Shown: positions 1,462-47,080 of the stretch, one piece after another | How the letters are laid out: every line of letters starts with the position of its first letter | Position numbering within the stretch: position 1 is the stretch's first letter | From: a virus | IMG/VR virus record: IMGVR_UViG_3300021957_004962 | Coordinates: 43,581-107,580 of that record | Direction: 5' to 3' (one strand) | Length of the DNA stretch: 64,000 bases | Position numbers and translations under genes: made by a program | Notes under the pieces: model-generated | The model's input: the letters and a program-made list of their open reading frames with translations, nothing else | Databases searched by the model: none | What the model was told of the DNA's origin: nothing

Positions 1462-2433
1462 TTATAATCCGTTAGGTACAATAATATAATGGATCATCAG
1501 CACTAGTGCAACACTTGCACCTAGGCCTACCATCATCTTACCAAAGTCCTTTGCTACCAATGGGAATACAGACTTAGTTTTCTTCTTACCAAAGTATGTC
1601 GCCATAGCCAACTCACGTCCTGCTAACAAGCCTACAAACACCCAAGTAGTACTCATAGGAATGTCATTCAACTCTTTGAAGAAGTAAAGACACAACCAAT
1701 AGAACAAGTCAATCAATGTTGCTGATCGAACATATCTTGTGTTATGTTTTTCTAAAACAATCTGTTGAATCTTACCACCACGCTCTCTGAACATAAAGAA
1801 TAGACCAGCAACAAATACTACGCTGATCATTAACATTAGATCAACTGGAATGACTCTTGGAAGGAACACAGCTATGTTAGCCATATCATGTGACAACCAA
1901 GTCCACCATAAGCCACCTGTGGCTACCCATTGTGCGATGCGCCAGAACTTCTTATTGCTTTCAGTGACTGGAGCAGTTTCATCATACCAGCGTCCAAAGT
2001 ACTTGTGTATTGCAAACCATACTACATATGCAAAACCCGCCGCAACGCCGTAGCCCATGATTGATTTCATCAGCATCTTCTCTAGTACAAAGGTACTTGC
2101 GAATACACTTAGCACCAAGAAACTTGTGCTAACTGGTACACCCATCCTTGTAAGTGCTACAAGAATAGCAGGTGCGGCTGCGTGATACCATTGTACTTCT
2201 TGCCACGGTATTTTGTTTAGTCTTCCGTAACTGATGTCCCCACCATTTACTGTCCAACCGTACCATAAGGTTGCAAGTAACACTGCACTTGCGGCTCCCC
2301 ATAATACTTTGTAGTTGAATCGCTCATTGTTTGATGCCATCCAAGTACCGAGCGTTTGTACTGAATCGTTTGCTATAACTGCATAGGCAGCTAATAAGAA
2401 GCCAAGTAGGCTCCATAAAGTGAGTGCGTCCAT
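1462..2433 (-). CDS. PiT-family-like phosphate permease
   Basis: A 323-residue polytopic membrane protein. It shows the doubled signature of inorganic phosphate (PiT) transporters: ANDSVQTLG (21-29) and DMANIAVF (183-190), each followed by a P(V/M)ST motif (GVPVSTS 98-104, IPMSTTW 258-264). The first 20 residues form a membrane segment. The start has AAAGGAG eight bases upstream. The expected role is uptake of phosphate during infection. It is shorter than the E. coli proteins, so substrate and coupling ion are inferred from family likeness. Confidence 0.65.
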   Translation of the reverse strand: MDALTLWSLLGFLLAAYAVIANDSVQTLGTWMASNNERFNYKVLWGAASAVLLATLWYGWTVNGGDISYGRLNKIPWQEVQWYHAAAPAILVALTRMGVPVSTSFLVLSVFASTFVLEKMLMKSIMGYGVAAGFAYVVWFAIHKYFGRWYDETAPVTESNKKFWRIAQWVATGGLWWTWLSHDMANIAVFLPRVIPVDLMLMISVVFVAGLFFMFRERGGKIQQIVLEKHNTRYVRSATLIDLFYWLCLYFFKELNDIPMSTTWVFVGLLAGRELAMATYFGKKKTKSVFPLVAKDFGKMMVGLGASVALVLMIHYIIVPNGL

Positions 2434-2501
2434 AATAATCTCCTTTGCTTGACGGCTTTACCCCGTCGCTCACAAATATAATACTTTTGTATTACAAAAA
2501 T
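2434..2501 (-). promoter_or_regulatory. Structured 5' leader of the PiT-like gene
   Basis: Two small hairpins precede the ribosome site: AATAC/GTATT with an AAAA loop, and GACGG/CCGTC with a 7-base loop ending about 10 bases before AAAGGAG. The position suggests translational control, but I do not recognise a known riboswitch. Confidence 0.3.
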
Positions 2502-2508
2502 TATTTAT
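2502..2508 (-). promoter_or_regulatory. T4-late-like promoter motif
   Basis: The motif AATAAATA on the minus strand lies about 70 bases before the PiT-like gene and overlaps the stop of the MazG-like gene. Confidence 0.4.
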
Positions 2509-2864
2509 TACTCAACAAACTGTGCTAGTTGTGGTGCTTTCCAACCTTCTGGCTTTAGTACTTTTCCGTCTTCACGTTTGCGTACTTTGCCTGTGTCTGG
2601 ATCAATCTTAGCAAAGTTTGTGTCCATTACTTCTTTCCAGGCCGCTTCGCCATCCCAACCTGCGGCACGAATAGCACCCATAGTAACAACAAGAATATCA
2701 ATTAGTGCATCTAGTTGTTCTACTTTATCATTTGCAGCAACAGCTTCTAATAGCTCATCCATTTCTTCATCTACAAGACTTAGATACATCTTGTAATTTG
2801 CTTCACTGGGTGGTTGGTCACATGCTGTGCCAAATGTTTCAATATCTTTAAATGGGTTTGTCAT
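2508..2864 (-). CDS. MazG-like nucleotide pyrophosphohydrolase
   Basis: A 118-residue all-alpha NTP pyrophosphohydrolase-like protein. The metal-binding pattern is visible: LVDEEMDELLEA (about 30-41) followed by DALIDILVVTMGAI (about 52-65), the E-x-x-E ... D arrangement of MazG/HisE-like enzymes. Such phage enzymes hydrolyse dNTPs or alarmone-like nucleotides; the substrate here is unknown. It abuts the methyltransferase gene. Confidence 0.75.
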   Translation of the reverse strand: MTNPFKDIETFGTACDQPPSEANYKMYLSLVDEEMDELLEAVAANDKVEQLDALIDILVVTMGAIRAAGWDGEAAWKEVMDTNFAKIDPDTGKVRKREDGKVLKPEGWKAPQLAQFVE

Positions 2865-3575
2865 TTATATTCTTTCTTTTAAATTATCTAGCCACCATTG
2901 ACTAGTTGGTGTTAATGGATTTTTTTCTTTCTCATATATTTCAGATGGAGTACTAATACTTGTACATATTTCATCTATTTTAACATCACCAAATCCTGGG
3001 GTTGTTATTAATGTAATGCCACAATTACGTTCGTCTGTTCCGTATGGATAGTCGCTAATATCATAACTTCCATTATTATGTATGCGTAGATCTGCAATAA
3101 ATTCTCTACATCCATCTATTACTGCGGTATCATGAAATACTATTATACCTTGTGGATTCATATGCGTCCATACATTAAAGAAATCATTTTTAATTCCTTC
3201 ATAACTATGACAGCCATCTATAAATGCAAAATCAATACCAAGTGTAAAACGACTAGTAAGTTCTTTCCTAAATGTGTCTTGATCTTTTTGTGTGTCTAAT
3301 TTGACAAGTGAATAACGATCTCCAATATGTTTTAATTTTTCATCGACGTGTTCAAATGATCCCATTTGTGAAAATTGACCACTTACGCCATGTGTATCCC
3401 AAATATCAAATCCTGTATACCAAGATTCAATATCTGTATCTTGTGTGTTTTCATTTAATGCACTGTATATTGCATTAGCCATACGTCCTTCAGCAACTCC
3501 TATTTCTATTGCTATTCTAGGACGTTGTAGTTTAATTAAGCCGTGTATAAAAGACCATTCTTGTTTAGTACTCAT
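2865..3575 (-). CDS. Class I SAM-dependent methyltransferase
   Basis: A 236-residue protein of the Methyltransf_24 / macrocin-O-methyltransferase-like type. Motif I is AIEIGVAEGRMA (about 27-38), and the metal/substrate motif is FAFIDGCHSYEGIKND, followed by GIIVFHDTA. These are typical of O-methyltransferases acting on sugars or small molecules. It overlaps the upstream gene by four bases. The target is unknown; the nearby sugar dehydrogenase makes a glycan substrate possible. Confidence 0.7.
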   Translation of the reverse strand: MSTKQEWSFIHGLIKLQRPRIAIEIGVAEGRMANAIYSALNENTQDTDIESWYTGFDIWDTHGVSGQFSQMGSFEHVDEKLKHIGDRYSLVKLDTQKDQDTFRKELTSRFTLGIDFAFIDGCHSYEGIKNDFFNVWTHMNPQGIIVFHDTAVIDGCREFIADLRIHNNGSYDISDYPYGTDERNCGITLITTPGFGDVKIDEICTSISTPSEIYEKEKNPLTPTSQWWLDNLKERI

Positions 3576-3853
3576 TTTACTTCTAAATCTATAAACTGCC
3601 CTTGAGTTTCTCCTGGGCTTACAGTTTTACCGCTTCGGTCGTAGCGAGTAGCAGCTTGATCTCTTAGTTGTTGAATCTCTAACATTCGTTCTTCAACTTT
3701 CCTAGTTTGATCTAATTTTAGATCTGCTCGTGTAGCTGCTTCTATAACTCGAATACGTTCTTTTTCCATCGGCGGTTTAATGTGTTCGCTGTTAGGATAT
3801 ACATTAGGGTGTCCGTATTGACTTGCTTGTATCGCTTGTTTAATTTCAGTCAT
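3572..3853 (-). CDS. Hypothetical protein
   Basis: A 93-residue hydrophilic protein with a charged helical middle (about 30-70) and the tail QFIDLEVK. I chose MTEIKQ at 3853 because AAAAGGA lies eight bases upstream and the longer start at 3877 runs deeper into the aldolase gene. No family recognised. Confidence 0.6.
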   Translation of the reverse strand: MTEIKQAIQASQYGHPNVYPNSEHIKPPMEKERIRVIEAATRADLKLDQTRKVEERMLEIQQLRDQAATRYDRSGKTVSPGETQGQFIDLEVK

Positions 3854-3866
3854 ACATGATTTCCTT

Positions 3867-4730
3867 TTAACTTTCATTTCCTGAATTCGCTGCTTTATAA
3901 ATATTGGTTATATTTTTTGTAATAGCAACATCAAAATATTCTTCGCTGTCAGTATAATAAAGATGTTCACTAAGTGCTCTACTAAAACTTGCTGTCATAT
4001 TGCTATTTTTTGAAAGTCTCTCACATGCTTCTTTATTATCGTATCCGCCAGATAACCCTACTAGTTTGTGTACTTTAGGAGACTTGGATGTATGTAAATA
4101 CTGGTTAGACTCTTCAGGAAGTGTTAATTTAAGAATACACATTCCAGTATACTTTTCTAAAAATGCTCTAAGTCTAGCGTCTAATAATTTTTCTAATAGA
4201 TCTTTTTTTGGATGATCAATTGGAATTTCAGGTTCAATAATTGGCATTAGTCCTGCCTTGTAGATAGTAGTAGCAAGTGTAAATTGTTGCTCTAACACCT
4301 TATCCAATATTTCTGTAGTTTTTACAATACTACGCATCTTTGTTCCAATGCATCCATAGTTTTTAGCATATGAAATCATCTGTTTTACTGGAAACTGTTT
4401 AAGTGTTCCGTCTTCATTGCATCCACTATCTATTTTAAGATATGTTTTAATACCCTTTCTTTCTAGTACGTTAACAATTCCCCGATCAACACTATCTTTA
4501 TATACAATAGCCGCCTGAATGTAACTACTATTAAAATTATGATTGTTAATCATGCGCAATCTCATATCATGCACAAGATCCATTTTATTTTCTTCAGTAT
4601 ATTCTTGTCCGTAGCGTTCTAGTACGCCACCTGTTGAACCACCACTGTGATCCATTGCTGCGATAAATGTCATATCTTTCCATTTACTCCTATGTTTATT
4701 CATTGATGATAAATGTCTACCCACTGCCAT
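3867..4730 (-). CDS. Class I fructose-bisphosphate aldolase
   Basis: A 287-residue aldolase of the bacterial class I type (Schiff-base lysine, no metal). Recognisable blocks in order: AAMDHSGGST, KTYLKIDSG (Lys and Asp in the active site), GTKMRSIV, GLMPIIEPEIP (Glu-Pro-Glu of the barrel), CILKLTLPEE (Schiff-base Lys), and LSGGYDNKEACERL with ASFSRAL (phosphate site). It interconverts fructose 1,6-bisphosphate with dihydroxyacetone phosphate and glyceraldehyde 3-phosphate. It directly follows purS and GAPDH in one overlapping operon, supporting a role in rerouting host glycolysis or gluconeogenesis. Confidence 0.85.
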   Translation of the reverse strand: MAVGRHLSSMNKHRSKWKDMTFIAAMDHSGGSTGGVLERYGQEYTEENKMDLVHDMRLRMINNHNFNSSYIQAAIVYKDSVDRGIVNVLERKGIKTYLKIDSGCNEDGTLKQFPVKQMISYAKNYGCIGTKMRSIVKTTEILDKVLEQQFTLATTIYKAGLMPIIEPEIPIDHPKKDLLEKLLDARLRAFLEKYTGMCILKLTLPEESNQYLHTSKSPKVHKLVGLSGGYDNKEACERLSKNSNMTASFSRALSEHLYYTDSEEYFDVAITKNITNIYKAANSGNES

Positions 4731-5093
4731 CTAATTGTTTTCCGTTATTTCACTAACTTCATAGTCTTCCATTACTTCGTTAGTTTGACTTTCAGCAATT
4801 GCACAAGCCTGTTCTAGACTGTCTGCATTGTATTCTAATATCTTTCCAATACGTACACTGTTTACTTCTGGAAATCCTAAATATTTTAGTGCATGGGTAA
4901 CAGCATTTCCTGCATTATCTAGTATACCCAATTTTAATGTTATTACTGCTTTGTACATATTTGGTAACCTAACTTGCCTACAATCTTCTTTCTCTAAGCC
5001 GTATACTGTTCCATGACAGCCGGCGCATCGTACTGAAAATGCGCTACTAGGTAACTCCATTACAAGTTCTCTGTTGCGACATATGCAGTTCAT
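4731..5093 (-). CDS. purS: PurS-like protein with a cysteine-rich N-terminus
   Basis: Residues 46-117 match the PurS subunit of phosphoribosylformylglycinamidine synthase: MYKAVITLKLGILDNAGNAV, ALKYLGF, VRIGKILEYNAD and a closing VMEDYEV. PurS makes a small dimer that couples PurL to PurQ in the fourth step of purine synthesis. The first 45 residues carry C3, C5, C24, C27 and C38, possibly a zinc ribbon, which ordinary PurS (about 80 residues) lacks. An internal ATG at MYKAV with AGG about ten bases upstream could be a separate start. No phage purL or purQ is in this window, so it would act with host subunits. Confidence 0.75.
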   Translation of the reverse strand: MNCICRNRELVMELPSSAFSVRCAGCHGTVYGLEKEDCRQVRLPNMYKAVITLKLGILDNAGNAVTHALKYLGFPEVNSVRIGKILEYNADSLEQACAIAESQTNEVMEDYEVSEITENN

Positions 5094-6055
5094 AGTTTAG
5101 CTATATGTGCGGCATTATCAGCCATGCGACATGAAAACCCCCATTCATTATCATACCATCCTAACACACGAACCATCCTTTTGTCTACTACTTTTGTTTG
5201 GTCGGCTGCAACAATACAGCTTTCACTAGTATGGTTATAATCTATACTAACTAATGGTGCAATTTCATATCCAAGTACTCCGTTCATATCATTCACACTT
5301 GCATTGTATAAAGCCGTATTAATATCATCAACTGAAGTATCTGTATCACTTTCAAAAGTAAAATCAACACAACTTACATTTGCGGTTGGTACTCTAATTG
5401 CACTGCCTGTTAATTTTCCTTCTAATTCGGGAATAATTAATCCTATGTTTTTTGTTGCACCTGTGCTGGTGGGTATCATACTCATGCCTGCTGTTCTAGC
5501 ACGATAGGGATCTTTATGTCGTCGGTCAACTGTACTTTGGTCACCAGTGTAACTGTGTACTGTTGTCATTATTCCCCTTTTAATCCCAAACTCTTGATGC
5601 AATATCTTTGCCATTGGCCCAAGACAATTTGTTGTGCAACTTGCATTGCTGATAATTTTGTCACTACTGGTGGCTTCTTCATGGTTAACTCCATATACAA
5701 TTGTTTTGTCTACATTCTTAGCAGGCGCACTAATAAGAACTTTCTTTGCTCCGTTCTCAATGTGTACTTTTGATACTTCTCCATCGTTAAATGCGCCTGT
5801 ACATTCCAGTACAACATCAACACCGGACCAATCTATCATTTCTATGTCCCTAGTATGACTCCATTTTAGCTTGTCGCTTAGTTGTCCGGCCCAACGACCG
5901 TGAATACTATCGTAATGTAACAAATGGATATTAGATTCAACATCACCACTTGCGTTTATTTTTACTAGAGTCAGATCATCTCTCTCGTCAAGTATATGAC
6001 GAGCTACGCACCGACCTATTCTTCCAAATCCATTAATGCCTACTTTAACTGTCAT
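5090..6055 (-). CDS. gap: Glyceraldehyde-3-phosphate dehydrogenase
   Basis: Near full length (321 residues). It has the NAD-binding start VGINGFGRIGR, the catalytic SNASCTTNCL with the active-site cysteine, the histidine block TTVHSYTGDQ, the phosphate-binding PTSTGATK, and the late WYDNEWGFSCR. It oxidises glyceraldehyde 3-phosphate to 1,3-bisphosphoglycerate reversibly. It overlaps PRPP synthetase by four bases and purS by ATGA. The P-x-x-S coenzyme-specificity segment was not assessed, so NAD versus NADP is open. Confidence 0.92.
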   Translation of the reverse strand: MTVKVGINGFGRIGRCVARHILDERDDLTLVKINASGDVESNIHLLHYDSIHGRWAGQLSDKLKWSHTRDIEMIDWSGVDVVLECTGAFNDGEVSKVHIENGAKKVLISAPAKNVDKTIVYGVNHEEATSSDKIISNASCTTNCLGPMAKILHQEFGIKRGIMTTVHSYTGDQSTVDRRHKDPYRARTAGMSMIPTSTGATKNIGLIIPELEGKLTGSAIRVPTANVSCVDFTFESDTDTSVDDINTALYNASVNDMNGVLGYEIAPLVSIDYNHTSESCIVAADQTKVVDKRMVRVLGWYDNEWGFSCRMADNAAHIAKL

Positions 6056-6984
6056 TGAAATAGACTTGAGACTGATTCTTCATTAGTGATGCGTCTAATA
6101 GCTTCACCAAATAGTTTGCTTACTGTTACAGTTCTAATCTTTTTGGTTTTTCCAGTATATTGAATTGTATCACTAATAACAAGTTCTTCCAATACACTTT
6201 TTTGAATCTTTTCACTAGCTGTACCACTTAACACCCCATGTGTAATATAAGCACGAACACTTAATGCACCTGCATCTATAATTGCTTGAGCTGCATTACA
6301 TAACGTTCCTCCGCTGTCTACGATATCATCTACTAAAATTGCGTGTTTGTTTTTTACCTCCCCAATTAAATTCATTACTTCAGATTTTCCTGCTTCTGGA
6401 CGAACCTTGTCTACGATAGCAATATCACCAGCAAATGTATCAGCAAATTTACGAGCTCTCACAACACCACCTGCGTCTGGAGATACAAATACTGTCCCTT
6501 CACTTACATTAATATGTTGTTCAATGTCTTTAGCAAATACTACACGGCTTGTTAAATCATCTACTGGAATATCAAAAAATCCTTGTATCTGTCCTGCATG
6601 TAGATCCATTGTAAGGACTCTATCTGCACCTGCTGTTGTTAGTAAATCTGCTACTAGTTTTGCAGTAATAGGTGTACGACTTGCACTTTTACGATCTTGT
6701 CTCGCATAACCAAAATAAGGAATAACTGCGGTAATTCTTTTTGCACTTGATCGTTTTGCAGTGTCTATCATAATTAATAATTCCATTAAGTTATCATTAA
6801 CTGGAGTACAAGTGCTTTGAATTAAAAATAAATCTTTTCCACGGATATTTTCAAGTACTTCTGTACATATTTCTCCGTCTGCAAATTGTTTAATATTGGA
6901 TGGTACCAAATCGGTAAAACAGTGGGTGGCTACATTAGTAGCAAAAGGTAAATTACTATTACCGCTCAAGATTTTTACAGTCAT
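6052..6984 (-). CDS. prs: Ribose-phosphate pyrophosphokinase (PRPP synthetase)
   Basis: Full length (310 residues). Blocks include FADGEICTEVLENIRGKDLFLIQ, YFGYARQDRKSASRTPITAK (flexible catalytic loop), VLTMDLHAGQIQGFF, the Mg/phosphate region VSPDAGGVVRARKFA, and the PRPP-binding loop LVDDIVDSGGTL. It makes PRPP from ribose 5-phosphate and ATP for purine, pyrimidine and NAD synthesis. GAGGAAATA precedes the ATG. It heads the operon with GAPDH, PurS and aldolase. Confidence 0.93.
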   Translation of the reverse strand: MTVKILSGNSNLPFATNVATHCFTDLVPSNIKQFADGEICTEVLENIRGKDLFLIQSTCTPVNDNLMELLIMIDTAKRSSAKRITAVIPYFGYARQDRKSASRTPITAKLVADLLTTAGADRVLTMDLHAGQIQGFFDIPVDDLTSRVVFAKDIEQHINVSEGTVFVSPDAGGVVRARKFADTFAGDIAIVDKVRPEAGKSEVMNLIGEVKNKHAILVDDIVDSGGTLCNAAQAIIDAGALSVRAYITHGVLSGTASEKIQKSVLEELVISDTIQYTGKTKKIRTVTVSKLFGEAIRRITNEESVSSLFQ

Positions 6985-6999
6985 TATTTCCTCTTATGG

Positions 7000-7311
7000 T
7001 TAAACGTTAAAACTTTCGCCACAGCCACATGAAGCTGTCGCGTTTGGATTTTTGACAACTAGATAGTTGCCGCCAAGTTCTCTTATATAATCAACTGTAC
7101 AACCGAAAACAAACATTTCGCTCATTGGATCAAGTTCTAGAATATCGTCTATTACTTTTCCTTCTGGCTCATCTGTAAAGTCCCAATCATACTTAAATCC
7201 ACTACAGCCGCCGCCTTGAACTGCCAACCTTACATATTGCTTTTTGTTTTGTAGCAACATTTCTTGCAAGTAACTTTTAGCTGATTCGGTAACTGTTAAT
7301 GGTATCTGCAT
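7000..7311 (-). CDS. A-type iron-sulfur carrier (IscA/ErpA-like)
   Basis: A 103-residue HesB-domain protein with the three ligand cysteines: GGGCSGFKYDW (about 34-44) and the C-terminal ASCGCGESF. It delivers Fe-S clusters to apoproteins. A phage Fe-S client, the ferredoxin at 8441-8797, is encoded nearby. IscA, ErpA and SufA cannot be separated by eye. Confidence 0.88.
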   Translation of the reverse strand: MQIPLTVTESAKSYLQEMLLQNKKQYVRLAVQGGGCSGFKYDWDFTDEPEGKVIDDILELDPMSEMFVFGCTVDYIRELGGNYLVVKNPNATASCGCGESFNV

Positions 7312-7312
7312 T

Positions 7313-7759
7313 TTACTTCTCTATTGGTTCTGGTATAATGCCACGCTCTGTTAGCATTGCTCTGTTATTTAAGTGTGCTTGTGCAATATCATCTTTTGAC
7401 TGTCCATGATATGCTGTTGCATGTCCTTCAGTAATCATCTTAGCATTAATGTCTACTCCGTCTACTAGTACTGTTCCTAATATACGTCCGAACTTACCTT
7501 TTTCATTGTCTACTACAGTTTGCACAATAATTTCTTCGCCTTTAATGTTTTCATATAACCAGTCTTTTGCAAGTAATCCGTATGCTTTTTCTTCTAAATC
7601 TCGTGTACGGCTCTCCGGAGTATCTATACCCAACATCCTAACTCTTCCTGCTAGTAATACGTCGAATCCTAAATCTAGTATACAGTCAAATGTGTCACCG
7701 TCAACCACTCTTGTTACTTGTTTAACCCGAAAGTTATATAATTCAATTTCTTTACTCAT
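7313..7759 (-). CDS. Thermonuclease (SNase)-fold nuclease
   Basis: A 148-residue SNase-like protein: VTRVVDGDTFDCILDLGF with the metal-binding Asp, RVRMLGIDTPESRT with the catalytic Arg and Asp, then KGKFGRILGTVLVDGVDIN and a late arginine-containing GKFGR. These are the catalytic residues of staphylococcal nuclease. There is no signal peptide, so it acts inside the cell, perhaps in host DNA or RNA degradation. GAGGAG and a late-like motif precede it. A more degenerate relative is at 27950-28297. Confidence 0.8.
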   Translation of the reverse strand: MSKEIELYNFRVKQVTRVVDGDTFDCILDLGFDVLLAGRVRMLGIDTPESRTRDLEEKAYGLLAKDWLYENIKGEEIIVQTVVDNEKGKFGRILGTVLVDGVDINAKMITEGHATAYHGQSKDDIAQAHLNNRAMLTERGIIPEPIEK

Positions 7760-7778
7760 TGTGTACTCCTCTATGGAG

Positions 7779-7785
7779 TATTTAT
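7779..7785 (-). promoter_or_regulatory. T4-late-like promoter motif
   Basis: CATAAATA on the minus strand, with its last base 19 bases before the ribosome site and ATG of the SNase gene. Confidence 0.5.
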
Positions 7786-8444
7786 GAGCAACTCATGCTT
7801 TCCTTAATTTGTTCAATAGCCCTAATAGGATCGTCACTTTCAGTAATAGTTCTACCAATAACCAAATAGTCAGCGCCCATGTTATATGCTTCTTGGGCCG
7901 TAACTGCTCTCACTTGTCCTTTATTGCTTCCAATGCCAGGACAGACTGTTATCATATCTTGTGCTAAGGGCTTTACTATTGCTAAGTCTGCAGGGCTACA
8001 TATCATACCACTAAAACCGTGCTTTTGTACTCGTTCGATGTTGTCTCTCCACATTGCGTCTACACCTTTAGGCAAATAGTGCAATATGTTTAACAAGTCA
8101 CTGCCGCTCCAACTGGTGAGATATGTAACGCCCAGTAGTTTAATTTGATTTGAAAATTGTTTAAGTTCTTCAAATACTGCTTCATTATTGTGTGTGCATA
8201 TAGTTGTCATTGTAGCGCCCTTGTCTACAATTTTCTGTACAACTTGCTTTACAGTATTTGGTGTGTCCCATAGTTTACAGTCAACAAATAGTTCTTTACC
8301 TTCTGTATAATCTTTAATGTAAACACTTTGACTCCACAGTGTGTGATTAGTTTTAAATCCGTCTACATGGTGTCTTAATTTTGCCGCCATTTCTAATGCA
8401 TCTAATGGATTAGTATAATCTAATGCGACAATAATTTTACTCAA
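7782..8444 (-). CDS. pyrF: Orotidine 5'-phosphate decarboxylase
   Basis: A 220-residue TIM-barrel decarboxylase. The start [10 protein letters not shown], the catalytic D-x-K-x-x-D tetrad motif in [14 protein letters not shown], and the phosphate-binding [16 protein letters not shown] are all present. It converts OMP to UMP, the last step of pyrimidine synthesis, and depends on PRPP, which the upstream prs could raise. It overlaps the ferredoxin gene by four bases. Confidence 0.88.
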
Positions 8445-8797
8445 CTGCCTTCTCCTGGATTTTTACTGAACAAATGTAGTTTTGATTTTAATGGATCCCA
8501 TGTACCACCTTTGGGACCATAGTATTTGTGGTCAGGTAGTGGTTCTCTTTTTTCAGTAATTACTGGCCATATATCAGCATATCTTTGATTAATTTCAACC
8601 CATCCTTCAGATTCTGGTGCAGTATCTGGAAATATTGCACCCTCTGGGCATTCTGGCTCACATACCCCACAGTCGATACATTCAACTGGATTAATTACAA
8701 GAGTGTTTTCGCCTTCGTAAAAGCAGTCTACAGGACAAACCTCTACACAATCTGTATGCTTACACAAAATACAAGCATCGTTAACAATATACGTCAA
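8441..8797 (-). CDS. 7Fe-type ferredoxin
   Basis: A 118-residue bacterial ferredoxin. Its N-terminal half has [19 protein letters not shown] and [16 protein letters not shown], the paired cysteine sets of [3Fe-4S][4Fe-4S] FdxA-type ferredoxins. The first set lacks the regular CxxCxxC spacing, as expected for a 3Fe site. The C-terminal extension (60-118) is longer than in minimal ferredoxins. It carries electrons in the cytoplasm; its partner is unknown. Confidence 0.88.
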
Positions 8798-16002: not shown

Positions 16003-16020
16003 TAGATGTCCTTTACATTA

Positions 16021-16186
16021 GAGTGGCACTTCTGTTGCTAGGCAGTACCCGCCCCCACATACCCTTAGGCTGCTAATGCCATTTCTGGCGCTCTATTTGC
16101 GTTTGCATTTAGAAATGTTGACCAATAACGCAGTCATCCGGTAAACTCCACTTCACTACCACACCTGTCGATCCTATTTCATCCCC
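16021..16186 (-). ncRNA. ssrA: tmRNA coding piece (permuted, alphaproteobacterial type)
   Basis: Starts GGGGATGAAATAGGATCGAC at 16186: the 5' acceptor-stem strand followed by the conserved D-loop-like GGATCGAC. The tag frame at 16106-16065 reads GCA AAC GCA AAT AGA GCG CCA GAA ATG GCA TTA GCA GCC TAA, giving ANANRAPEMALAA, a normal-length tag with the ALAA ending read by ClpXP/ClpAP. The first seven bases pair with CATCTCC of the acceptor piece, including the G3-U70 wobble that alanyl-tRNA synthetase needs. The 3' end is estimated at about 16021-16030. It would rescue stalled ribosomes and tag unfinished proteins. Confidence 0.93.
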
Positions 16187-16187
16187 A

Positions 16188-16376
16188 TCATAAAGACACT
16201 GAATCTAAAGGTTTACAGATATATTCAACTGTATCCCAATGTCCGTCCGCTGGCATTTCTGTATATTCTACAAGCATAGTTTTACACTGTGCTTTAGTTT
16301 CAAACTGTTGTACATCTTGTTCTAAGCAGGTTGTGCCAGAACAAACTGTTAATAGTATGTGCCAGATAATTTCCAT
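16188..16376 (-). CDS. Small protein inside the tmRNA intervening segment
   Basis: 62 residues from ATG 16376: a hydrophobic start (MEIIWHILLTVCSG) then a domain with paired cysteines (TTCLEQ, KAQCKT, EYICKP). AAGGAC lies nine bases upstream, starting right after the acceptor-piece CCA. The TGA at 16190-16188 stops one base before the mature 5' end of the coding piece. The upstream reading to 16445 is not a gene, because it runs through the acceptor RNA. Small secreted or membrane-anchored Cys proteins of this shape occur in marine phages. Confidence 0.65.
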   Translation of the reverse strand: MEIIWHILLTVCSGTTCLEQDVQQFETKAQCKTMLVEYTEMPADGHWDTVEYICKPLDSVSL

Positions 16377-16390
16377 TCTCAATGTCCTTA

Positions 16391-16452
16391 TGGTGGAGAT
16401 GCGCGGTACTGCCCCGCGGTCCAGTATGCGTTCACGTTGCTTCAACGTTTAC
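16391..16452 (-). ncRNA. ssrA: tmRNA acceptor piece (permuted)
   Basis: It ends CGCATCTCCACCA at 16391, with encoded CCA. Upstream is a 5-bp T-stem, CGCGG/CCGCG, around the 7-base loop GGCAGTA, which differs from the usual T-loop but resembles what I recall for alphaproteobacterial two-piece tmRNAs. Further 5' is a small hairpin ACGTTG/CAACGT. The 5' end (about 16452) is set by the promoter. In the precursor it lies upstream of the coding piece, which is the permuted order. Both pieces are needed for function. Confidence 0.88.
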
Positions 16453-16457
16453 AATAT

Positions 16458-16488
16458 TATTTATAACAGTAGTATATAACGATGTCAA
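16458..16488 (-). promoter_or_regulatory. tmRNA promoter, sigma70-like with a coincident late motif
   Basis: TTGACA (16488-16483), 17-base spacer, TATAAA (16465-16460). The -10 region is also a perfect TATAAATA late motif, so the RNA could be made both early and late. Confidence 0.75.
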
Positions 16489-16498
16489 TCTTTATTAA

Positions 16499-16505
16499 AT
16501 AAATA
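16499..16505 (+). promoter_or_regulatory. T4-late-like promoter motif
   Basis: AATAAATA on the plus strand, 21 bases before ATG 16527, with AAGGGA between. Confidence 0.5.
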
Positions 16506-19632: not shown

Positions 19633-19803
19633 TTACCACCATCCTAATTTTTTGGTGTTGTGTATAATAATTGCAAAGCAAGTGAGGATGTGTACTACCC
19701 ACCAAAACGTTCGAATTGCTGCTACTGCATTTGCTTGCGCATCAGTTTCACCAACTTTTTCGCCAAGGCTTTTAGCCCATATCCGCCACCATCTTTTAAT
19801 CAA
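19633..19803 (-). CDS. Small membrane protein, TTG start
   Basis: 56 residues ending RTFWWVVHILTCFAIIIHNT with KKLGWW. It is a paralogue of 56316-56525. The TTG at 19803 overlaps the DoxX stop (TTGA), and the same AGGAAACAGAAC leader precedes it as precedes 19616, so TTG is preferred over the ATG at 19845. Confidence 0.65.
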   Translation of the reverse strand: MIKRWWRIWAKSLGEKVGETDAQANAVAAIRTFWWVVHILTCFAIIIHNTKKLGWW

Positions 19804-20207
19804 GTTCTGTTTCCTCGCAGAGCGAAGTACATTCCACCTACCCATAGTAGGACATGAAAGTGATCATATAGTATAACGTCTGTGAAACTTTCAGGCTCGC
19901 CAGTCCATATAACACCTGTCATAATACTGGCAATAGTAATGCCCGAGAATCGTGTAATCATATCGCCAAGCTCTTTAATACGCTTTTGCAGTCCAATTAC
20001 ACCGCCAACTACTAAACCTAATGCGGCGCCCAGTTCACCTAATACAACAACTGACCACACCAGTAGAGTTAATTCTACTGGTGAGTCGTTTACGTCGATT
20101 GGCCACTTGTCCATTCCTTGCTGTACAAATACAACAATAAGCGGTAAGCGTAGCAACCAATGAGTCATACAAAACTCTGGGATTTTGTTTACCAAGTTTT
20201 TAAGCAT
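19800..20207 (-). CDS. DoxX-like membrane protein
   Basis: 135 residues, four membrane segments. LLRLPLIVVFVQQGMDKWP at the start and LGELGAALGLVVGG resemble DoxX/quinol-oxidase-associated proteins. Directly after the pseudoazurin gene, which hints at a shared redox or envelope role. The family call is by pattern only. Confidence 0.6.
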   Translation of the reverse strand: MLKNLVNKIPEFCMTHWLLRLPLIVVFVQQGMDKWPIDVNDSPVELTLLVWSVVVLGELGAALGLVVGGVIGLQKRIKELGDMITRFSGITIASIMTGVIWTGEPESFTDVILYDHFHVLLWVGGMYFALRGNRT

Positions 20208-20210
20208 AAC

Positions 20211-20630
20211 TTATAACTCTTTCAACAATGCCTTTAGTTTTTTCTTTGACTTGCCTTTTACTTTGGCTTTGGATACATCATTGTCTCCGTCACCTACGAC
20301 AACAATAGCAATCATACCCATTGACTTGTGTGGTGAACACTGATATAGATATACGCCTGGTGTGTCAAATGTAATCGCAACTTCTTTGTTGAGTTTTGAT
20401 TTACGTGGTGCATCCCAGCCATCTGGACCAGCAATGAATTCTACATTGTGACCTTTTGCTGTTGGTACCCAAGTAATCGTATCGCCTACATCAATACGTG
20501 TGATATCTTCTGAGTACACCATTTTGGCGCCGTCATCACGTTTGTTTAACATTTCGACTGTAGTGTCTGCGGCAAAGGCAGTAGTTGTGAAAGCAGTTAG
20601 TACTGCTATAGTAGCTAGTAATTTTTTCAT
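20211..20630 (-). CDS. Pseudoazurin-like blue copper protein
   Basis: 139 residues. Sec signal (MKKLLATIAVLTAFTTTAFA, cut before ADTT), then a cupredoxin domain. The type-1 copper ligands are all present: His in KGHNVEFI, Cys and His in YLYQCSPHKSMGM, and the final Met. The C-terminus is lysine rich. Pseudoazurin shuttles electrons in the periplasm, for example to copper nitrite reductase. AAGGA precedes the ATG. Confidence 0.87.
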   Translation of the reverse strand: MKKLLATIAVLTAFTTTAFAADTTVEMLNKRDDGAKMVYSEDITRIDVGDTITWVPTAKGHNVEFIAGPDGWDAPRKSKLNKEVAITFDTPGVYLYQCSPHKSMGMIAIVVVGDGDNDVSKAKVKGKSKKKLKALLKEL

Positions 20631-23166: not shown

Positions 23167-23466
23167 CTAAGTTTCTTCAATCTCAAGAACTAATGGATAT
23201 CCCAAGGATCTACTTGCAAGAATACCTTCTGCTACTTTTTGTTCAGCAATTTCATAAAAATACACACCAGCTATACCAGAACCTTCTACATGTATAGATA
23301 ATGTAATTTTTTCTGCACTTTCTCTTGTGTGTTGAAATGTGTTTACTAATAATTCGATAACGAACTCCATTGGAGTAGCATCATCATTATGTACTATAAC
23401 TTTGTATTTTTTTGGGGTTGCTAGGTTTATCTTTTCTTTCTGTTGTAGATTTTCTTGAGTGCTCAT
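23167..23466 (-). CDS. clpS: ClpS-like adaptor
   Basis: 99 residues. [20 protein letters not shown] is the ClpS core with the N-degron-pocket Asn-Asp-Asp and Met; [19 protein letters not shown] follows with the conserved His. ClpS hands N-end-rule substrates to ClpA and blocks ClpA from ssrA-tagged ones. Its presence alongside a phage tmRNA suggests retargeting of host ClpAP. Confidence 0.9.
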
Positions 23467-23514: not shown

Positions 23515-23949
23515 TTATTTAATTTGAATAGTGCGTGGTTTCTTCTCTTCTGGAATAATACGCTCTAGTTCGATGAATAGCATACCATTTTCCATTCTAG
23601 ATCCATTTACTACAATGTCGTCGCTAAGTGTAAAGTTGCGTTTGAAATGACGCTGGCTGATGCCTTTGTGTAACCATTCCCATCCGCTAGACTCTACTTC
23701 GCCTTCCGGTGTGTGTTCAACTGTAAGTACACCCTCTGCTACTGTAATATCCAAATCTTCTTTGGCAATACCAGCTAGTGCAATTTCAATTTGAAACTTC
23801 TCACCATCACGTACAATGTTGTAAGGTGGATATCCCCCTGTACTATTTTGGTTATGATTTGCATATTTGAACATATCGTCAAATACTCTATCAAAGCCAA
23901 CAGCATATGGAGTAAGTTTATTGATGTCTAATGTTGTTAATCTATTCAT
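23515..23949 (-). CDS. Hsp20 small heat-shock protein
   Basis: 144 residues. The alpha-crystallin domain is clear: PPYNIVRDGEKFQIEIALAG, DITVAEGVLTVEH, HKGISQRHFKRNFTL, VNGSRMENGMLFIELERIIP, then the C-terminal IQIK. I chose MNRLTTLDIN at 23949 because AAGGGGG lies six bases upstream. Holds unfolded proteins; several T4-like phages carry one. Confidence 0.9.
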   Translation of the reverse strand: MNRLTTLDINKLTPYAVGFDRVFDDMFKYANHNQNSTGGYPPYNIVRDGEKFQIEIALAGIAKEDLDITVAEGVLTVEHTPEGEVESSGWEWLHKGISQRHFKRNFTLSDDIVVNGSRMENGMLFIELERIIPEEKKPRTIQIK

Positions 23950-23960
23950 ATCCATCCCCC

Positions 23961-24596: not shown

Positions 24597-24827
24597 TTAT
24601 TTTTCTTTTTTCTTTTCTAATTCTTTAAGGTGTCGTTTTCTGGCGGCTGCTTTAGCTTTCTTTTTCTTTAAGCTAGGCTTTTCGTAATATTCTTTGTCTC
24701 GAAGTTCTTTAACTAACCCTTCAGTATTCACTAATTTTTTTAACTTGCGTAAAGCACGAGTTACATCGTTATTCCTAACTTCAACATAAAGCCCACGTTT
24801 TTGATATTCTCTTTTAGGTTCTCTCAT
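24597..24827 (-). CDS. rpsU: Ribosomal protein bS21
   Basis: 76 residues. GLYVEVRNNDVTRALRKLKK, the EYYEKPSLKKKKAKAAARKR stretch and the lysine-rich tail are the bS21 signature, near normal length. bS21 joins the 30S subunit near the anti-Shine-Dalgarno region and affects initiation. ATGA overlap with infC and GAGGAAAG upstream, so the two are co-translated. Confidence 0.92.
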   Translation of the reverse strand: MREPKREYQKRGLYVEVRNNDVTRALRKLKKLVNTEGLVKELRDKEYYEKPSLKKKKAKAAARKRHLKELEKKKEK

Positions 24828-25363
24828 TCTTTCCTCGTTTTTAATATGCCTATTAGTCTATTACCATTTAAACTAGGCTTAATGTCCCATTCAGTTGATG
24901 TAGTGTTTTCAATAATGCGTTCCATTATTTCAAATCCTATTTGTTTATTAGCGTTTTCTCTTCCACGATACTTGATAACACATTTAACTTTACAATCTTT
25001 ACTAAGAAATTTTTCAATATGTCTTAATTTTGTATTGAAATCATTATCTCCAATACCTAATTTAAATTGCATTTCTTTAATTACAGTTGTGCTTTCACGC
25101 TGCTTACGTTGTAGGTCTTTTTCTTTGCGTTTTTGCTCGTAAAAGTATTTACCCGCATCTAACAATTTTGCAATAGGAGGATCTGCTTTTTCATTAATAA
25201 GTACTAAATCTAAATTAATTGCATCAGCCATTTGTAATGCTCGATGCTTATCAATTATCCCATGTTGTATTCCATTTTGATCAATTAATCTCAACTTAGA
25301 TTGACGTATATAATTGTTAATGGGTGCCGTCTTATTTTCTTGTTTAAATGCTGATCTATTCAT
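24824..25363 (-). CDS. infC: Translation initiation factor IF3
   Basis: 179 residues, complete two-domain IF3. N-domain: INNYIRQSKLRLIDQNGIQH, ALQMADAINLDLVLINEKAD and PPIAKLLDAGKYFYEQKRKE; C-domain: VIKEMQFKLGIGDNDFNTKL, HIEKFLSKDCKVKCVIKYRG and GIL near the end. Some positions diverge from cellular IF3 (NAN where R-G-RE usually runs). IF3 keeps 30S subunits free and polices start codons. It starts inside the end of 25356-25784 and overlaps rpsU. Confidence 0.9.
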   Translation of the reverse strand: MNRSAFKQENKTAPINNYIRQSKLRLIDQNGIQHGIIDKHRALQMADAINLDLVLINEKADPPIAKLLDAGKYFYEQKRKEKDLQRKQRESTTVIKEMQFKLGIGDNDFNTKLRHIEKFLSKDCKVKCVIKYRGRENANKQIGFEIMERIIENTTSTEWDIKPSLNGNRLIGILKTRKE

Positions 25364-25784
25364 AGTGCATCGAATCCAGCATCATTTCTGCATATTCATT
25401 TAAGTCTTCAAAAACAGCACACTTAGAGCTCTGTTTGGTATTAAGTAATTTTACAATACTTTTACGCTTATTGGTTTTAGTAATAAACACTTTATTAGTA
25501 TTAGCCATTAAACTTACTACTATACCTAATTCATTTATACTATCAAGATCAATGTATAGTGTATCACTAAAACGAGCCATTGACATTAGCCACCCACTGT
25601 TTGAATCATTTACAATGCCGCCAGGGTGATACAATGTAATTGGAACACTTTTAAATAAGTTCTCATAAAGTGTTTCTACTTGATCAACAAATGATTGTTC
25701 TGTGGTTAATAATGTAATAATCGGTCCACGATCAGGTAGCATCATATCTGGTGGAGTTACTGTGTAGATTGGATTTTCCCTCAT
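25356..25784 (-). CDS. Conserved phage protein
   Basis: 142 residues, with TPPDMMLPDRGPIITLLTTE near the start and a Rossmann-like alternation (FSDTLYIDLDSINELGIVV, KVFITKTNKRK). ATGA overlap with the coiled-coil gene. I recall similar proteins in T4-like marine phages, without known function. Confidence 0.65.
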   Translation of the reverse strand: MRENPIYTVTPPDMMLPDRGPIITLLTTEQSFVDQVETLYENLFKSVPITLYHPGGIVNDSNSGWLMSMARFSDTLYIDLDSINELGIVVSLMANTNKVFITKTNKRKSIVKLLNTKQSSKCAVFEDLNEYAEMMLDSMHYE

Positions 25785-27946
25785 TGGGTGTTCTTGTCCT
25801 CTTTCGATTTAATGGTTACTTTTTTAATAGCCTTGCCTCTATTAGAAACTAACACCCCACTAGGGCTATATAGTTTCATATCATGTCTAGCTGATAATTG
25901 AATTTTTGTTAATTCTTCGTCAGGTCTATCATCAGTATACGGGTTATATGCTTTCTTGTCAACTATTAAATCGGTCGCTTCTTGCTCTGGTATCTCTCCA
26001 GAACTTCCTCCGGTGTCCTGTTCGGTATCAGTTTGCTCCTTGGCTTCTCCACTGTTAAGAACTTGTTCTTGTGCAGATTCCAATTTGCTCCGTCCTGATA
26101 AACTTTCCTCATCAACGGTTTCTCTATCTCGTTCATTATGTCCCATATCATCATCTTGCATATCTTCTGGTAGTTTGTCCCCATTATCCGGTCCATCGTT
26201 TTTAGGTTCTGGAGGTATAGGTCTATCATCTGTGTGTACATTGTGTGTTACCTTTTCTTGTCTACGCCATTCAAATGTATATTGGCTTGCTATTAATAAT
26301 AATACCGCTAGTGGATCAAATACAAATATAATGACTAAAATAACCCATCGTACGGCTTGTTCAAGGATGTCTTGATCTGCTACATCACCATAAACAAACT
26401 CTGCTAGATATTTAATCGGCCCTACTTCTGCCTCAAGTTTTCTATACTCTGCTTGTAATTCATATTTTTGTTCAATTAATATGTCAGTTGCATCATTGGC
26501 ATCACGTATGATTGTATTTTGTTGGCGGATAATATCGTCTAAGTCCACATTATCACCAATTTGTATTTCATTACGTAACTTGTTAATAATACTTTGTGCA
26601 GCGGCTATTTCACTATCAGCACTATTACGTTGTCTAGTAATTTCTTCTCGAGCTGATTCAACAATAACATTAGGTGCATTTCTTAATTCTGTTATTTTAT
26701 TTTGCGCAATTGTTCTATCTTGTCTAACATCTGGTATATCGGTGGCAAGGATATAATCAATCTTTTCTTGAATGGTATTACGAGTTGTTTGTAAACCACT
26801 TGCCGCATCATTGCGTAATGATGCAATGGTGTCGAGCAAGCCTTGCTTACGACTATTTGCTTGCTCAGTTTTTGTGCCACGCAAGTCTTTAACAAGGTCA
26901 GTTAGTCTTGCACGTTCATTATTAACTGTATTTTGTGCTTGCGTTCTTAATTCCGACTCTTGTGCTTGTAGTTGTGCAATACGTTCTTGTTGTGCTTCTA
27001 CCCAAGTTGCTAATGCTCGACGAGTATTGCCCCCAAATAGTCCGTCACTAGTTACACCAATAACAGCCTGACCGGCCTTAATTTGATCTCGTTCTGTACT
27101 TTGCAATTTATTTGTAGTTACTACAATTGCTTCTTCAACATTTGTAATTTGTTCTTGTAAACTTTGTATTGCGGTATTATCCACTTGTACTTGACTAATA
27201 CGAGCTTCATATTCATTTGCTTGTGTGTTAATACGTTCTAAATCTACATCTAGTTGTGCAATTTGATCTTGATAAGGTTGTATTTGTTCTTCTACACTTG
27301 CAACAGTTGTACTATCAAGTTGTGTACGATATTCATTAACTAGTTCATTTAACCTTGTTAATTCATCGCCTAAGTCTTTAATTTCATTTTCATATACTGT
27401 GACACGATCTTCTAATGCAGTAGCTTGTGCTAAAATTATTGCATTTTGTTCTGCAATGGCAGGTTCACGTCGATTATAAGCACTATCAATTCTTTCTTGC
27501 TCTTTATCAATTTTTTCTTGTATACCTGTATCTTGTTTGTCAGCATTATTTTCTGCTTTAATTATACGAGTTTCTGCTCGTTCAATAATAGCTTCTTGAC
27601 GCAGTACATCTTGATCGATTCTTTCAATTTGTGCTAACCCTTCTTCTGCACCAGAAGTTTGTTCAATATGTGCTTTAGACAAGAATCCAAAAATTCCCAT
27701 ACTTGTGATAAACATTAATACAAATACAGCAATACTTAGATAACCTTTAAGCCACCATTTTGCTTTTGCCCAATTTTTATGTAGCCATAATGCTGTTACC
27801 AATTTACCAATCTCAAGGGCACCACCCATAATTATAATTGGTAGGGCGGCTGCGGCAAATATTGCAACTAGTCCTGCTACACTATAGTAGATAGCCACTG
27901 CACTAATAGTTAGTGCTATTATTAATGTTAATATACCTAAAAACAT
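25781..27946 (-). CDS. Large membrane-anchored coiled-coil protein
   Basis: 721 residues. Three N-terminal membrane segments (MFLGILTLIIALTISAVAIY, then the two around GGALEIGKLVTALWLHKNWA and SIAVFVLMFITSMGIFGFLS), a coiled coil of about 400 residues rich in Gln/Glu/Arg, one further membrane segment (AVRWVILVIIFVFDPLAVLL), and an acidic, disordered C-terminus. The middle contains a short peptidoglycan-binding-like SDGLFGGNTRRALATW.  The architecture recurs in marine phages. Likely spans the inner membrane during infection; role unknown. Confidence 0.75.
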   Translation of the reverse strand: MFLGILTLIIALTISAVAIYYSVAGLVAIFAAAALPIIIMGGALEIGKLVTALWLHKNWAKAKWWLKGYLSIAVFVLMFITSMGIFGFLSKAHIEQTSGAEEGLAQIERIDQDVLRQEAIIERAETRIIKAENNADKQDTGIQEKIDKEQERIDSAYNRREPAIAEQNAIILAQATALEDRVTVYENEIKDLGDELTRLNELVNEYRTQLDSTTVASVEEQIQPYQDQIAQLDVDLERINTQANEYEARISQVQVDNTAIQSLQEQITNVEEAIVVTTNKLQSTERDQIKAGQAVIGVTSDGLFGGNTRRALATWVEAQQERIAQLQAQESELRTQAQNTVNNERARLTDLVKDLRGTKTEQANSRKQGLLDTIASLRNDAASGLQTTRNTIQEKIDYILATDIPDVRQDRTIAQNKITELRNAPNVIVESAREEITRQRNSADSEIAAAQSIINKLRNEIQIGDNVDLDDIIRQQNTIIRDANDATDILIEQKYELQAEYRKLEAEVGPIKYLAEFVYGDVADQDILEQAVRWVILVIIFVFDPLAVLLLIASQYTFEWRRQEKVTHNVHTDDRPIPPEPKNDGPDNGDKLPEDMQDDDMGHNERDRETVDEESLSGRSKLESAQEQVLNSGEAKEQTDTEQDTGGSSGEIPEQEATDLIVDKKAYNPYTDDRPDEELTKIQLSARHDMKLYSPSGVLVSNRGKAIKKVTIKSKEDKNTQ

Positions 27947-30062: not shown

Positions 30063-30101
30063 TTATATACGATTATATACGATTATATACGATTAGTCAA
30101 T
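30063..30101 (-). promoter_or_regulatory. Sigma70-like promoter with three tandem -10 boxes
   Basis: TTGACT (30101-30096); TATAAT at 30088-30083, 30078-30073 (17-base spacing) and 30068-30063, created by a 10-base unit (TATATAATCG) repeated three times. Confidence 0.7.
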
Positions 30102-47073: not shown

Positions 47074-47080
47074 TATTTAT
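47074..47080 (-). promoter_or_regulatory. Late-like promoter motif five bases before ATG
   Basis: GATAAATA, TTATT, ATG 47068; likely leaderless. It overlaps the stop of the ligase-like gene. Confidence 0.6.

Follow-up and report, generated by a model that had tools for sequence, protein, structure and literature searches.

We identified, in a family of marine phages, an overlapping gene pair (infC and rpsU) that encodes a complete translation initiation factor IF3 and a ribosomal protein bS21 and that, judging from sequence comparisons, probably helps steer host ribosomes toward viral messages. The analysed DNA (hereafter the window) is a 64,000-nt stretch covering positions 43,581-107,580 of the 107,580-bp IMG/VR virus record IMGVR_UViG_3300021957_004962; positions given below are those of the window unless another locus is named. 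On its minus strand, infC (24824-25363) encodes 179 amino acids from an ATG start codon. It is followed by rpsU (24597-24827, minus strand), whose product of 76 amino acids is assigned to bS21 by the Pfam S21 model (3.6e-17; 62.2 bits against a curated cut-off of 27). IF3s 54-99% identical to that of the window are encoded on 21 further marine phage contigs. A literature search of open-access text found no report of an overlapping infC-rpsU pair in a phage, or of the wider cassette described below, and both the overlap in the marine family and the location of the two genes inside an old phage cassette look new.

The product of infC comprises an N-terminal and a C-terminal IF3 domain with a helical linker. 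Both domains score far above the Pfam cut-offs (IF3_N, 1.7e-23, residues 15-83; IF3_C, 1.6e-21, residues 94-175), and the protein matches PHROG 9787 "translation initiation factor" (1.5e-41) as well as IF3 chains in the PDB (up to 1.5e-33). An AlphaFold2 model based on 21 relatives has a mean pLDDT of 86, with confident predictions for the two domains and partly lower confidence for the linker. The best PDB matches of this model in Foldseek are IF3 structures, many of them taken from 30S complexes. These profile and fold matches bear out the first-pass annotation of this DNA, which had noticed a complete two-domain IF3 in a phage. Its further remark that a full phage IF3 is rare does not hold, as 98 phage records match, some unannotated ones among which may be bacterial contamination, and published huge phages carry IF3; jumbo phages known to do so include GAP32, 121Q, and Atu_ph07.

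To relate the protein to characterised factors, residues were compared in E. coli numbering across the 16 distinct IF3s of the marine clade, 23 bacterial-type sequences, and 11 other phage IF3s. Eleven positions are the same as in E. coli in 16/16 clade members (N16, R25, Q33, K72, Y75, E76, K110, G132, R133, E134, and G167), and arginine or lysine is retained at positions 99, 112, 116, 129, 131, and 147. Residues important for fidelity and rRNA contact, including Y75, K110, R133, and the six basic positions, are thus in place, and the lack of 30S-binding residues that had been raised as a possible objection is not observed. We therefore infer that infC encodes a working IF3, which would act on the 30S subunit. 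Other positions have changed throughout the clade, namely Y70A, K97Q, M135N, and the tip of the beta-hairpin, where the E/D-G-R168 of cellular IF3 is replaced by N-G-N-R. Position 168 is asparagine in all 16 marine sequences, with an arginine at the next position (R169), while it is arginine or lysine in 23/23 bacterial-type sequences and asparagine in 3 of the 11 other phage IF3s. The loss of the basic R168 does not by itself exclude the protein from the IF3 family. In T. thermophilus IF3, the hairpin residue Arg159 lies near the anticodon stem, and our own alignment places it opposite E. coli R168. Tyr75 touches 16S h23, and Tyr75 mutants lose fidelity but keep their 30S affinity (PMC5037330). 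A literature search for arginine mutants of IF3 gave nothing relevant. The replacements Y70A and R168N could come at the cost of certain IF3 functions; in view of position 70 and the hairpin, the phage factor may be a modified one, but the known fidelity residue Y75 is kept.

The two genes meet in the sequence GAGGAAAGA[ATGA] (24824-24836, minus strand), which combines the Shine-Dalgarno sequence of rpsU (GAGG, 24833-24836), located within the 3' end of infC, with a stop-start overlap (ATGA, 24824-24827). The shared ATGA had been pointed out before and is confirmed here. The same annotation had described infC as fused in an operon with bS21, which is accurate as regards overlapping genes but not in the sense of a fused protein. 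The infC end GAGGAAAGA[ATGA] is identical in 22/22 contigs, as expected of a translationally coupled pair with a conserved stop-start overlap. Across the 16 distinct IF3 sequences, 61 columns hold a single degenerate residue, and a single codon is kept in just seven of them; three of these seven are the last three codons of infC (AGG AAA GAA). This codon invariance indicates that the nucleotides themselves are constrained, as Shine-Dalgarno sequence and start of rpsU. The junction is therefore of the coupled type, and translation of rpsU would be expected to depend on that of infC.

The order of the surrounding genes is the same wherever the flanks were checked in the marine family: a coiled-coil, membrane-type protein of 721 amino acids (25781-27946), a conserved protein of 142 amino acids without assigned function whose gene overlaps infC by 8 nt (25356-25784), IF3, bS21, an Hsp20 chaperone (23515-23952), a ClpS adaptor (23167-23466), and an IMPDH-type protein. 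All four flanking genes with coordinates lie on the minus strand, and Hsp20 and ClpS were assigned by Pfam. In distant phages, relatives of the 721-aa protein are encoded just ahead of a ClpX-IF3 or ClpX-S21 arrangement. A 146-kb contig shows the order membrane protein-ClpX-IF3, and a 296-kb phage carries membrane protein-157 aa-ClpX-IF3-...-bS21-...-Hsp20, with 1.3 kb between infC and rpsU. Homology between the 142-aa protein and the 157-aa protein of the latter phage was considered and rejected, as BLASTP gives none. In Atu_ph07 and Phosso, ClpX-IF3 is followed by bS21 at a distance of about 1.4 kb (spanning the record start) and 7 kb, respectively. Salicola SCTP-2 has membrane protein-ClpX-bS21-ClpS, PA5oct has ClpX-bS21-Hsp20-ClpS, HTVC008M has CobS-bS21-Hsp20, and both 121Q and GAP32 have IF3-ClpS, with a DnaJ-like gene coming next in 121Q. 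For phage AP-J-162, the clpX-infC neighbourhood has already been noted, and bS21 is also present (PMC11242549). Together, these arrangements suggest an old cassette of coiled-coil membrane-type protein, ClpX, IF3 and/or S21, Hsp20, and ClpS that recurs in distant phages and, as a recurring unit, looks new. HTVC008M, PA5oct, and SCTP-2 encode bS21 without IF3 and 121Q and GAP32 encode IF3 without bS21; hence, neither protein requires the other everywhere. Two side observations concern the chaperones. In locus L003, Hsp20 (8210-8713) is 98% identical to that of the window and IF3 (5995-6516) just 64%, which may reflect strong constraint or a recent exchange between phages. Locus L013 (15836-18950, minus strand) encodes a Clp-type double AAA ATPase beside a DnaJ-type chaperone, in addition to the ClpS and Hsp20 near infC.

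The presence of infC on 21 more marine contigs, the invariant junction, and the same flanking order wherever checked exclude chance and bacterial contamination as the source of the gene. A contaminating bacterial contig, the other objection foreseen in the first-pass annotation, is thus not what we find. The record itself contains genes for a phage-type clamp loader, a DnaB-type helicase, a second DNA helicase, a primase, PhoH, and ribonucleotide reductase. The Terminase_6N model, the single terminase model tried, found no match in it, and the record is probably incomplete. It also encodes a permuted tmRNA of alphaproteobacterial type (16020-16503, minus strand), with the predicted tag ANANRAPEMALAA and a late-type motif inside at 16464; this tmRNA type fits an alphaproteobacterial host, though without proving one. 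Elsewhere in the record, inspection by eye suggested a metabolic-looking run (1462-8797, minus strand) with phosphate transporter-like, aldolase-like, GAPDH-like, PRPP synthetase-like, IscA/ErpA-like, OMP decarboxylase-like, and ferredoxin-like genes, and a plastocyanin- or pseudoazurin-like copper protein with a signal peptide that adjoins a DoxX-like membrane protein (19800-20630, minus strand). L013 (6105-7223, minus strand) encodes a CCA-adding or poly(A) polymerase-type enzyme, and ARAGORN finds no tRNA gene in the record.

In the phylogeny, the 16 marine IF3s form a single clade with a long stem (ultrafast bootstrap 100, SH-aLRT 99), which groups with 121Q, GAP32, and the 146-kb phage contig (96/95), with long branches involved. 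A union of the marine IF3s with the sampled alphaproteobacteria, all of which are copies on large plasmids, was not rejected by the AU test (p 0.27). A common origin of all phage IF3s was rejected when those sampled were constrained to one clade (p 0.02). Most pairs of infC have a dN/dS of about 0.05-0.2, the value of 0.45 coming from one pair with just 6 changes, and the IF3 protein is therefore under purifying selection. On these comparisons, infC was present in the marine phage family before its diversification.

We also surveyed start codons and promoters. ATG is the first possible start in 129 of the 168 ORFs, and 45% of ORFs have a Shine-Dalgarno core, versus 6% of internal ATGs. The motif ATAAATA-N5-ATG is present at six sites in this record and at six and five sites in two relatives. 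The gap is exactly 5 nt with no other spacing below 10, and permuted motifs occur at most twice. The 5' ends of ATAAATA lie at 47080, 45412, 36325, and 13006 of the window (minus strand), at 2130 in L013, and at 14631 in L014. At other genes, this T4-type late motif is located 16-28 nt before ATG, often with a Shine-Dalgarno sequence in between. There are thus two classes of late genes that differ in ATAAATA spacing, one of them probably leaderless; from the geometry of T4 late promoters, the mRNAs of the 5-nt class would be predicted to start at the A of the ATG. HTVC008M has nine such sites, and all seven in the annotated stretch examined coincide exactly with annotated gene starts; several of these are virion genes, and baseplate, tape-measure, and DNA end protector genes are represented. 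As for infC itself, no late motif was found on its strand from infC to 36325. The best sigma-70-like site ahead of the dense gene run 29826-24597 is a weak TTGACT-17-TATAAT (30072-30100, minus strand), and the sigma-70-like scan taken as a whole did not exceed shuffles. The missing late motif and the sigma-70-like site weakly favour early or middle transcription of infC as the likelier timing.

Considering these features together, we think it reasonably likely that a working phage IF3 and a co-made phage bS21 take over initiation on the host 30S subunit in favour of phage messages. During infection, the phage IF3 would bind host 30S subunits, hold them apart from 50S, and check start codon and initiator tRNA as is usual for IF3. 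Expressed from one overlapping gene pair, IF3 and bS21 would arrive jointly and act on a shared face of the 30S subunit, its platform side, where the two might favour initiation at phage messages. Ribosomes terminating on infC would largely be the ones to read rpsU, so that excess IF3 may limit the output of the pair. Such a restraint of bS21 synthesis, exerted at the ATGA junction, is conceivable because in E. coli excess IF3 cuts re-initiation about threefold, less so with a Shine-Dalgarno sequence, and blocks growth of M13 (PMC2268962). In F. johnsoniae, the formation of 30S complexes shows a joint dependence on IF3 and bS21, and bS21 is described as by far the commonest phage-encoded ribosomal protein (PMC9976891). 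When ribosomes of E. coli incorporate the bS21 of pelagiphage HTVC008M, they are inactive, and the authors suggested that further viral or host factors are involved (PMC6375957). The general idea that a phage IF3 redirects translation is not new, as it has been proposed for huge phages (PMC7162821).

A more elaborate version, in which a dedicated viral module pairs an IF3 with an altered anticodon-side hairpin that works best on phage-bS21 ribosomes with a preference for viral messages, leaderless late ones included, and self-limits bS21 through re-initiation at the ATGA, seems rather improbable to us. So does, to a slightly lesser degree, the simpler view that a host-like IF3 just enlarges the pool of free 30S subunits in a slow-growing host, with no message preference and no tie to bS21 beyond shared expression. 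The retained canonical residues, the occurrence of IF3 without bS21 in 121Q and GAP32, and the ordinary ATG starts of most phage genes, 45% with a Shine-Dalgarno core, agree with such a dosage effect; the clade-fixed replacements of Y70 and M135 and in the hairpin, the long separate history of the marine IF3s, and the conserved nucleotide-level tie of infC to rpsU do not. An extremely small chance is left for a contaminating or recently acquired host gene without a role: IF3 is universal in bacteria and an alphaproteobacterial origin is compatible with the AU test, but 22 contigs share the junction and a conserved neighbourhood, and the proteins form one deep clade with low dN/dS.

The first-pass annotation had proposed instead that an altered IF3 relaxes the rejection of unusual starts, citing TTG starts and several predicted leaderless mRNAs. 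The leaderless part is partly right, since some leaderless-type late promoters in the marine family are real; normal IF3 antagonises leaderless messages (PMC4611024), and Y70A and R168N with the adjacent arginine are fixed in the clade. However, HTVC008M has its nine leaderless-type sites without an IF3, while the IF3-bearing 121Q, GAP32, and Phosso have one, two, and none, which argues that IF3 and leaderless design are not tied. Nor do TTG starts call for a changed IF3, because IF3 does not discriminate against AUG, GUG, or UUG (PMC4611024), and most ORFs have ATG as the first start anyway. With Y75 also retained in 16/16 sequences, a change of initiation rules is possible but not favoured, and we rate it as quite unlikely. 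Alternatively, high levels of phage IF3 might mainly hurt competing phages or host operons whose expression depends on re-initiation or on leaderless messages, in line with the effects of IF3 overexpression on re-initiation and M13 in E. coli (PMC2268962). This would harm the phage itself unless timed, because it has tightly overlapping genes itself, some of them apparently leaderless, and we regard it as very unlikely. Under the favoured reading, in which IF3 and bS21 jointly direct the host 30S subunit to phage messages, the conserved viral IF3 is, for the marine family, a concrete candidate for the factor missing with pelagiphage bS21, and the overlapping genes make phage-specialised ribosomes a directly testable idea. 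The recurring neighbourhood of ClpX, IF3/bS21, Hsp20, and ClpS also suggests an old phage programme in which regulation of translation is linked to protein quality control.

Among known systems, the closest parallel is the IF3 of jumbo phages (PHROG 9787), represented by GAP32 of Cronobacter, 121Q of Escherichia, Atu_ph07 of Agrobacterium, and Phosso and AP-J-162 of Sinorhizobium. These are likewise two-domain IF3s of large phages, and their genes adjoin clp genes as in the window (clpS in 121Q and GAP32; clpX in Atu_ph07, Phosso, and AP-J-162). However, they are about 28-34% identical to the IF3 of the window, their genomes are much larger, and those inspected show no overlap of rpsU and infC. 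The bS21 genes of HTVC008M, PA5oct, and Salicola SCTP-2 have a neighbourhood of like kind (ClpX or CobS, with Hsp20 and/or ClpS), but these genomes have no IF3. Cellular IF3 (TIGR00168; E. coli, T. thermophilus) shares the domains, linker, fidelity residues, and most rRNA-contact residues, and differs in lacking the Y70A, M135N, and N-G-N-R hairpin of the marine clade. The E. coli infC starts with AUU, and the infC of the window lacks the thrS/rpmI/rplT neighbours of the E. coli gene. Many Azospirillum plasmids carry infC, and an rpsU-infC pair is found on Azospirillum brasilense plasmid p5 (L089). The Azospirillum plasmid pair (NZ_CP033323) likewise consists of neighbouring genes that are not part of the usual infC operon, but there rpsU comes first, the pair is plasmid-borne, and the two genes do not overlap.
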